From Actinomycetes bacterium (lineage in GTDB: Bacteria; Actinomycetota; Aquicultoria; Aquicultorales; Aquicultoraceae): a stretch of 64,000 nucleotides of DNA. The DNA lies in NCBI GenBank assembly GCA_021794835.1, contig JAJYQA010000022.1, positions 1-64,000 on the forward strand, written 5' to 3'. The translations under genes were made by a program, and so were the position numbers. Position 1 is the stretch's first letter. Every line of letters starts with the position of its first letter. The notes beneath the pieces were generated by a model. The model did not search any database. It had not been told where the DNA came from and saw only the letters and a program-made list of their open reading frames with translations. Positions 25,081 through 61,133 of this stretch are shown one piece after another.

Positions 25081-25164
25081 GCCCGAGTGGCGGAATAGGC
25101 AGACGCAGCGGACTTAAAATCCGCCGCCTTCGCAGGCGTGCCGGTTCGACTCCGGCCTCGGGCA
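25081..25164 (+). tRNA. tRNA-Leu (anticodon UAA)
   Basis: An 84-nt class II tRNA. Acceptor GCCCGAG (25081-25087) pairs with CTCGGGC (25157-25163). The anticodon stem GCGGA/TCCGC holds the loop CTTAAAA, giving anticodon TAA. A long variable arm CGCCTTCGCAGGCG and the T arm GCCGG-TTCGACT-CCGGC follow. The CCA end is not encoded. This is the classic host of group I introns in cyanobacteria, but here it is uninterrupted. Confidence 0.96.
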
Positions 25165-60663: not shown

Positions 60664-60692
60664 TTGAAACTTGCAAAAATATCCTCTATAAT
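60664..60692 (+). promoter_or_regulatory. Promoter of tRNA-Asn
   Basis: TTGAAA (60664-60669) and TATAAT (60687-60692) are exactly 17 bp apart, a near-consensus housekeeping promoter. Transcription would start near 60699, about 40 nt before the tRNA. Confidence 0.75.
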
Positions 60693-60740: not shown

Positions 60741-61056
60741 TCCTCGGTAGCTCAACGGTAGAGCATTCGGCTGTAAGGTAAAGTTGCAGCTTCCACGGGT
60801 AACCGTGGTTGAAAAATCGGGTGAATTCAGGGGAACCTGATTACCGCAAGGTGTAAGGCAATCCTGAGCCAAGCCTCAATTTAAAATTGAGGAAGGTGCA
60901 GAGACTATCCCGCAAGGGAGTACCCTAATGTTTTATATATTAGGGGAAGCGCCCGACTTCCGGCCAGTAGGTCGGAGGATGATATAGTCCAATCTCCGAA
61001 GAAACTCGGAGGCAATTGTAACCGAAGGGTTGTAGGTTCGAATCCTACCCGGGGAG
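60741..61056 (+). tRNA. tRNA-Asn (anticodon GUU), split by a group I intron
   Basis: Exon 1 is 60741-60774 and exon 2 is 61019-61056. Joined, they give a 72-nt tRNA: acceptor TCCTCGG pairing with CCGGGGA (one G-U), D arm GCTC-AACGGTA-GAGC, anticodon arm TTCGG-CTGTTAA-CCGAA, variable loop GGGTT, T arm GTAGG-TTCGAAT-CCTAC, discriminator G. The anticodon GTT is split between its second and third bases. CCA is not encoded. Read without splicing, the anticodon loop cannot be formed from the 5' exon. A near-consensus promoter lies upstream and a strong terminator downstream, so the gene is likely functional. Confidence 0.93.
60775..61018 (+). ncRNA. Group I self-splicing intron (IC3-like) in tRNA-Asn
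   Basis: A 244-nt ribozyme without an ORF. P1: exon GCTGT (60770-60774) pairs with the internal guide GCAGC (60786-60790), with the required U-G pair at the 5' splice site. P2 is CCACGG/CCGTGG with a GTAA loop (60793-60808). The core strings GGCAATCCTGAGCCAAGCC (60857-60875) and GGTGCAGAGACT (60895-60906) are those of cyanobacterial tRNA-Leu introns as I remember them. P7 pairs the GACTAT segment with ATAGTC (60983-60989 region). P8 is CCCTAAT/ATTAGGG (60923-60945), and a P9-like hairpin is CTCCGA/TCGGAG (60994-61011). The last intron base is G (61018). IC3 subgroup membership rests on these resemblances. Confidence 0.95.
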
Positions 61057-61133
61057 CACTTAAGATTCCAACTTGAAAAACCGCTTTGTAGAGCGGTTTT
61101 TCTTATCTATGCCTAATGTTATGGTTGTGGGTT
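61049..61133 (+). repeat. Direct repeat 1: tRNA-Asn 3' end plus terminator
   Basis: CCGGGGAGCACTT (61049-61061), the 3' end of the tRNA and its flank, is repeated exactly at 63216-63228. The following terminator and the trailing TATGCCTA...GTTATGG...GGGTT string are also repeated with changes. Together the two copies span 85 and 101 bp and start 2167 bp apart. Confidence 0.75.
61076..61105 (+). terminator. Terminator of tRNA-Asn
   Basis: AAAAACCGCT (61076-61085) and AGCGGTTTTT (61092-61101) form a perfect 10-bp stem, and the T-run is part of the stem's 3' arm. It lies 20 bp after the tRNA. A decayed copy of it lies at about 63250-63276. Confidence 0.85.

Follow-up and report, generated by a model that had tools for sequence, protein, structure and literature searches.

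A group I intron in the anticodon of tRNA-Asn(GUU), at an insertion site shared across bacterial phyla

Group I introns in bacterial tRNA genes have been described in tRNA-Leu, tRNA-fMet, tRNA-Ile and tRNA-Arg, with further claims for tRNA-Gly and tRNA-Lys, and the accessible portions of the reports that cover these hosts (PMC8450103, PMC3984707, PMC5733544, PMC4033280) do not name tRNA-Asn among them. The introns of tRNA-Leu(UAA), tRNA-Arg(CCU), tRNA-Ile(CAU) and tRNA-fMet, in bacteria and plastids, are small, reside in the anticodon loop, place a U.G pair at the splice site, end with a G and usually lack an ORF, and the intron described here is similar in each of these respects. According to the main text of Lui et al. 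2021 (PMC8172020), group I introns also occur in some tRNAs of circularised genomes, mainly from CPR bacteria, and such tRNAs are difficult to detect. A 2025 preprint (Nakagawa et al.), as it is cited in PMC12641178, reports a 'novel insertion site' in tRNA genes of Patescibacteria. We found no published account of the tRNA-Asn 35/36 site, which that preprint may or may not describe.

The window, meaning the whole 64,000-nucleotide stretch of DNA that was analysed, contains a split tRNA-Asn(GUU) gene on the plus strand (60741-61056, both exons and the intron). Its 5ˊ exon (60741-60774, TCCTCGG...GGCTGT) ends with U35, and its 3ˊ exon (61019-61056, TAACCGAA...CCGGGGAG) begins with U36 and does not encode CCA. 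Between them lies a 244-nt group I intron (60775-61018), which contains no ORF of useful size and no endonuclease ORF, and which ends in a terminal (omega) G at 61018 that can be read directly from the sequence. The tRNA exons and intact orthologues together set its boundaries. The acceptor, D and anticodon stems pair in the exons, and ARAGORN, which called no tRNA on the unspliced locus (60741-61056), reported tRNA-Asn(gtt) when the intron was deleted and the exons were joined. Because ARAGORN misses such a gene, genomes annotated as lacking tRNA-Asn may often have it in interrupted form. Moving the splice site by one base would create an anticodon loop of six or eight bases, an option ruled out by the intact orthologues. 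The preliminary description had proposed an ORF-less intron of this length between U35 and U36, and both the Rfam match reported below and the call on the joined exons agree with it; ARAGORN and the Rfam scan likewise confirm its statement that the tRNA-Leu(UAA) gene at 25081 has no intron. Insertion in the anticodon loop is shared with the known bacterial tRNA introns of subgroup IC3, and the host lies outside their tRNA-Leu/Arg/Ile/fMet set.

Consensus scans, whose matches alone are no proof of function, place a sigma-70-like promoter upstream of the gene (TTGAAA-17-TATAAT, 60664-60692, plus strand, 11/12) and a terminator-like hairpin with a T tail downstream (61075-61102, plus strand). These signals would frame the tRNA-Asn gene as a single unit.

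Structurally, the intron has a P1 stem with a U.G pair, a pseudoknotted P3-P7 core, a P4-P6 domain, P8, P9 and a 3ˊ-terminal G, as expected of group I. A covariance search, which the preliminary description had named as its own check, matched the Rfam model RF00028 over its full length (model positions 1-253) at 60765-61011 with 96.4 bits, well above the cut-off of 50 (E=1.2e-23). The helices were then assessed in 45 introns from the same tRNA-Asn site, which were aligned on sequence only before the structure was projected onto them, and the partner strand was slid by 1-3 bases as a control. P1, P2, P3, P4, P6 and P7 are paired in 96-99% of cells compared with 2-64% for the slid controls, and the values for P3, P4, P6 and P7 (98-99%) are well above those controls. 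The internal guide sequence GCAGCU (60786-60791) forms P1 with the exon sequence GGCUGU (60769-60774), with the U.G pair at the splice site and 96% pairing. The P2 hairpin CCACGG-GUAA-CCGUGG (60793-60808) is also 96% paired, has 20 pair types that are changed on both sides and shows a compensatory change from G-C to A-U within the genus. P3 (60817-60823 with 60950-60956) is 98% paired with 10 such double-change types, and P4 has eight. The guanosine-binding core P7 (GACUA, 60903-60907, with UAGUC, 60985-60989) is 99% paired and nearly invariant. Pairing is weaker across this diverse set for P8 (60959-60976, 70%, 16 double-change types), P9 (60994-61011, 82%, 17 double-change types) and P5a (70%). 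Covariation across the 45 introns supports P1 to P9, with the P3/P7 core among them; P1 with its splice-site U-G, P2, P7, P8 and the terminal G had already been read from the letters of this one sequence.

Two additional hairpins lie between the 5ˊ strand of P7 and the 3ˊ strand of P3 (60908-60946). They occur in only a subset of the Asn-site introns, with 43-50% pairing over the whole set, and resemble the P7.1/P7.2 elements of subgroups other than IC3, an impression formed without subgroup models. The minimum-free-energy fold of the precursor includes P1, P2, P3, P4, P5, P6a, P8 and P9 along with the acceptor, D and T arms of the tRNA, and has a z-score of -8.05 relative to shuffles. P7 is absent from this fold, which holds P3, because P7 forms a pseudoknot. 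Among the two congeners of the window's species, G028 retains all 72 pairs (one double change and two wobble changes) and G027 has one broken pair among the 72. The unpaired positions differ at 15/125 and 12/125 sites, respectively, and so the loops diverge within the genus while helix changes are compensatory or preserve a wobble, with one exception. Archaeal-type introns that are cut out by the splicing endonuclease at a bulge-helix-bulge also sit in or beside the anticodon loop, and such an intron was considered here. However, the full-length group I covariance match, the P3/P7 core and the terminal G leave that candidate with a negligible probability, and it was rejected.

The genomic context of the gene permits a direct comparison of filled and empty sites. 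In all seven other genomes of the family that were compared, tRNA-Asn adjoins a ferredoxin gene next to rpoD. The preliminary description had called for a search of the clade for the same insert, and the intron is indeed present in all three species of the window's genus, and absent from three sister genera of the family, where the anticodon region is uninterrupted in five species (G030, G033, G034, G035 and G032). The gene is complete in three of these, and in G033 and G032 a contig end truncates it beyond this region. In the whole class, 11 of 36 genomes have an interrupted tRNA-Asn (including G041, whose halves are on two contigs) and 13 have an intact one; a strict pattern matched 9/36 genomes of the class and 12/396 of the phylum. 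Within the genus, intron identities of 94% and 88% track relatedness, and a species from another family of the same order (G037) carries an intron that is 71% identical to that of the window. Both observations are what strictly vertical inheritance within the class, with many losses and no mobility, would predict. This explanation fares less well in family f3, where one genus has an endonuclease-bearing intron and the remaining genomes examined have intact genes.

The same insertion site is found far beyond this class. We searched a genome collection with a degenerate pattern in which a P7-like ATAGTC precedes the 3ˊ half of tRNA-Asn, and this yielded at least 117 stretches. After filtering for acceptor, D and anticodon stems and for the arrangement CTGT|intron|TAA, at least 50 genome loci and 10 loci from viral collections share the GU|U site. 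Among the matches listed, all 61 filtered loci have a G just before TAA at their 3ˊ splice site, this G being part of the filter. The pattern demands TAAYC and GGTTCRA, and therefore divergent introns at the Asn site and introns at other sites are under-counted. Hosts among the matches listed include Omnitrophota, Elusimicrobiota, Nitrospirota, Cyanobacteriota, Planctomycetota, Bacteroidota, Ignavibacteriota and Rokuibacteriota, as well as many Patescibacteria and two Pacearchaeota bins. The RF00028 cut-off was exceeded at the pattern site in 16 of 19 representatives scanned and in 8 of the 10 viral-collection loci. tRNA-Asn is a common host of group I introns beyond the textbook set of tRNAs. 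The initial impression of an unusual host is therefore accurate in that tRNA-Asn stands outside that set, but not in the sense of being rare. In one cyanobacterial genome, introns are present in both tRNA-Leu(UAA) and tRNA-Asn (L345, L120), and in a Microcoleus bin the tRNA-Asn intron is probably accompanied by one in tRNA-Arg(CCU) (L363, L054).

A survey published in 2018 listed 39 archaeal group I introns, all in rRNA. In a whole-genome search, the two Pacearchaeota bins (L058, L062) have tRNA-Asn-like genes with group I introns, both above the RF00028 cut-off. The study of tmRNA introns (PMC11915505) warned of misbinned bacterial contigs in archaeal metagenome-assembled genomes. Such misbinning can inflate the apparent spread across phyla, and viral collections can contain bacterial contigs; we therefore treat the archaeal cases and some of the viral cases as leads. 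The viral-collection contigs L177, L184, L191, L202, L208, L227, L240 and L243 have tRNA-Asn-type genes with group I introns above the Rfam cut-off; several carry tRNA arrays, and some may be bacterial. In another, L211, the insert is 844 nt long and contains a LAGLIDADG-like ORF. A BLAST search against plasmid and phage sequences found no full-length relative.

A 2014 review considered phage introns to be confined to protein genes. In the jumbo Klebsiella phage Muenster (MT708547.1, 301379-304494; L376:1450-1758), an unannotated CAU tRNA contains a group I intron directly after CAU, which matches RF00028 with 104.1 bits. Seven further viral-collection contigs (L179, L186, L194, L214, L226, L229 and L237) have tRNAs that are interrupted in the anticodon loop, with the 3ˊ splice site near CATAATC, and these introns apparently form a second family in phage tRNAs.

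Some introns at the Asn site are longer (about 540-630 nt) and encode a protein of about 110 amino acids with the motifs CxxCGY, FHH and CANCHREVH. At least 13 ORFs of this one family are located inside Asn-site introns. All 13 members searched match HNH families in PHROGs (best E=2.9e-32), and 9/13 match Pfam HNH at E values up to 0.01, the top match still being below the Pfam cut-off. Three of the endonuclease-bearing introns belong to genomes of the window's own class (G058, G046 and G054), and in the 36 genomes of the class the protein is found inside the intron only. In one of them (L309, from G054, with a protein of 114 amino acids), the ORF runs from just past the 5ˊ splice site and continues across the guide sequence, P2, P3 and P4, and therefore the C-terminus of the endonuclease and the ribozyme share bases. 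The HNH-encoding gene of these relatives probably helps the intron to spread by homing. One locus, L111, looks like an internally deleted form. The window's own intron has an in-frame likeness to the endonuclease C-terminus (KLQLPRVTVVEKSGEFRGT), which we rejected as proof of a lost ORF, given that conserved ribozyme bases could force such a likeness.

A tree of intron cores, in which many forks are weak and the bootstrap did not converge, unites the introns of the window's genus (100/99) inside a group of 16 rows (94/91) with introns from Omnitrophota, Elusimicrobia and Patescibacteria. Beyond the genus, its closest neighbours in the tree occupy the Asn site in Omnitrophota, Deltaproteobacteria and Aminicenantes. 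The three introns of this class that bear the endonuclease gene fall into a different group (97/99) with those of Nitrospira and cyanobacteria. One bacterial class hence holds two intron sublineages, each intermixed with introns of other phyla, a pattern that fits horizontal movement. Together with the existence of homing-type ORFs and the distribution in family f3, it makes strictly vertical descent unlikely. The introns of tRNA-Leu (a single cyanobacterial example), tRNA-Arg and tmRNA are on very long branches, and because of these branches, the weak forks and the unsettled bootstrap we do not argue that the Asn-site introns arose only once.

The absence of an intron from tRNA-Leu(UAA) in the window had led to the proposal that the intron either moved between tRNAs or was acquired separately. 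The intron belongs to a lineage already established at tRNA-Asn in many phyla, and we found no evidence for a recent jump from tRNA-Leu. Changes of host gene have been reported for some group I introns, and tRNA introns have core motifs in common, which lends some plausibility to a recent transfer out of a different tRNA of this bacterial lineage, such as tRNA-Leu(UAA), in place of descent from an Asn-specialised intron lineage. Yet none of the five other RF00028 matches in this genome is in tRNA-Leu, all being in or beside 23S rRNA or in tmRNA, the guide sequence is complementary to tRNA-Asn in nearly all relatives, and the closest introns outside the genus occupy the Asn site. We consider such a transfer very unlikely.

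No second tRNA-Asn was detected among the 44 other tRNA matches in the genome that contains the window (G000; 2.04 Mb, 44 contigs, 97.8% complete). A tRNA-Asn pattern allowing up to three mismatches matched just two other tRNAs in this genome, and BLAST with the locus, which readily detects intact tRNA-Asn exons in relatives, found no second copy in G000, in G027 (100% complete) or in G028. The interrupted gene is very probably the sole tRNA-Asn of this organism, a copy in an assembly gap being possible at this completeness. Because no second gene was found in the 97.8% complete assembly, the organism very probably relies on splicing of the intron to decode asparagine codons. The preliminary description had foreseen this dependence if the gene were unique, and the expectation holds as far as can be judged from the DNA.

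Fragmentation of the assembly invites the alternative that the split gene is a dead copy whose intron no longer splices, with an intact tRNA-Asn hidden in a gap. tRNA genes can indeed be missing here: tRNA-Ile2(CAU) was likewise not found in G000, where the two tRNAs with a CAU anticodon resemble initiator and elongator tRNA-Met, and either a gap or an unusual gene may account for this. However, the locus retains intact splice sites, P1, P3/P7 core and exon stems, pairing is preserved by the changes within the genus, and the gene is framed by promoter-like and terminator-like signals. Moreover, G027, which is rated 100% complete, likewise has the interrupted gene only. We regard a dead copy as highly improbable. 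The intron is real and very probably functional, and the gene that it interrupts is very probably the sole tRNA-Asn. An essential and apparently single-copy tRNA would then be produced only through a working ribozyme, and therefore splicing competence should be under direct selection.

In the rRNA locus of this genome (G000:C44, L050:4224-9300), four group I-like matches lie within or next to the 23S rRNA gene. The locus also contains two ORFs that we take, from their motifs, to be LAGLIDADG-like and an ORF presumably resembling 23S intervening-sequence proteins. The 16S rRNA of the genome is closer to that of Ornithinimicrobium (Actinomycetota) and of a Clostridia bin (82-83%) than to Chloroflexota (77-78%), the phylum at first suggested by Mfd, and Actinomycetota is our tentative placement. 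The tmRNA gene (G000:C18, L051:1740-2407, minus strand) has a T-loop group I intron of about 343 nt, which scores 47.2 bits with RF00028, just below the cut-off, and which matches the known class of tmRNA introns (PMC11915505). A tRNA-Sec-like gene (L051:674-765; RF01852, 44.4 bits, below the cut-off) has a GCA (Cys) anticodon, and an ordinary tRNA-Cys is present elsewhere in the genome.

In the mechanism we propose, the guide sequence GCAGCU would hold the 5ˊ exon sequence GGCUGU in P1, and an exogenous guanosine bound at P7 would attack after U35. The freed 3ˊ hydroxyl of U35 would then attack after the terminal G, joining the exons to create the GUU anticodon. The intron presumably spread between organisms in a form that encodes an HNH endonuclease, homing into intronless tRNA-Asn genes. 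The endonuclease gene would have been lost afterwards, leaving the copy in the window as an ORF-less resident that became fixed in the genus. We are confident in the combined reading that splicing yields a GUU tRNA-Asn and that the intron belongs to a widespread, site-specific lineage, probably homed by an HNH endonuclease whose ORF was then lost. A broader reading, to which we give somewhat less than an even chance, is that these introns constitute an undescribed lineage of mobile ribozymes that specialises in U35|U36, that extends to many bacterial phyla, some archaea and phages, and that has its own HNH endonuclease, with its C-terminal codons overprinted on the bases of the guide sequence, P2, P3 and P4, many of the hosts, this one included, having no other tRNA-Asn. 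What makes the system interesting is how widely the site is occupied, together with the vacant sites in orthologous genes and the HNH gene that relatives overprint on the ribozyme. Because exons are nearly identical across the bacterial tree, orthologues at the same position in the chromosome lack the intron and forms with and without the endonuclease gene coexist, the gain, fixation and loss of a mobile ribozyme can be traced at one tRNA.

Compared with the known anticodon-loop introns, this intron differs in its host, tRNA-Asn, and in its site, GU|U (35/36), whereas the cyanobacterial tRNA-Leu intron follows U34. The endonuclease of the cyanobacterial tRNA-fMet intron reportedly belongs to a nuclease family other than HNH. 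Like the Asn-site endonuclease, it is encoded in a tRNA group I intron and has a target in the anticodon region, but its tRNA is a different one (Bonocora and Shub 2001, as cited in PMC3984707). Unlike the hosts of the introns in the preprint of Nakagawa et al., the organism represented by the window is not thought to belong to the Patescibacteria, and the main-text passages of Lui et al. 2021 (PMC8172020) on tRNA introns give neither their isotype nor their site. The T-loop introns of tmRNA (PMC11915505) offer a further parallel in that they interrupt a gene for a structural RNA, use few sites that are preceded by U, occur in many phyla and carry homing endonucleases in a small minority of cases. 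However, their host gene is different, and their endonucleases are of the LAGLIDADG type, in contrast to the HNH proteins encoded at the Asn site.
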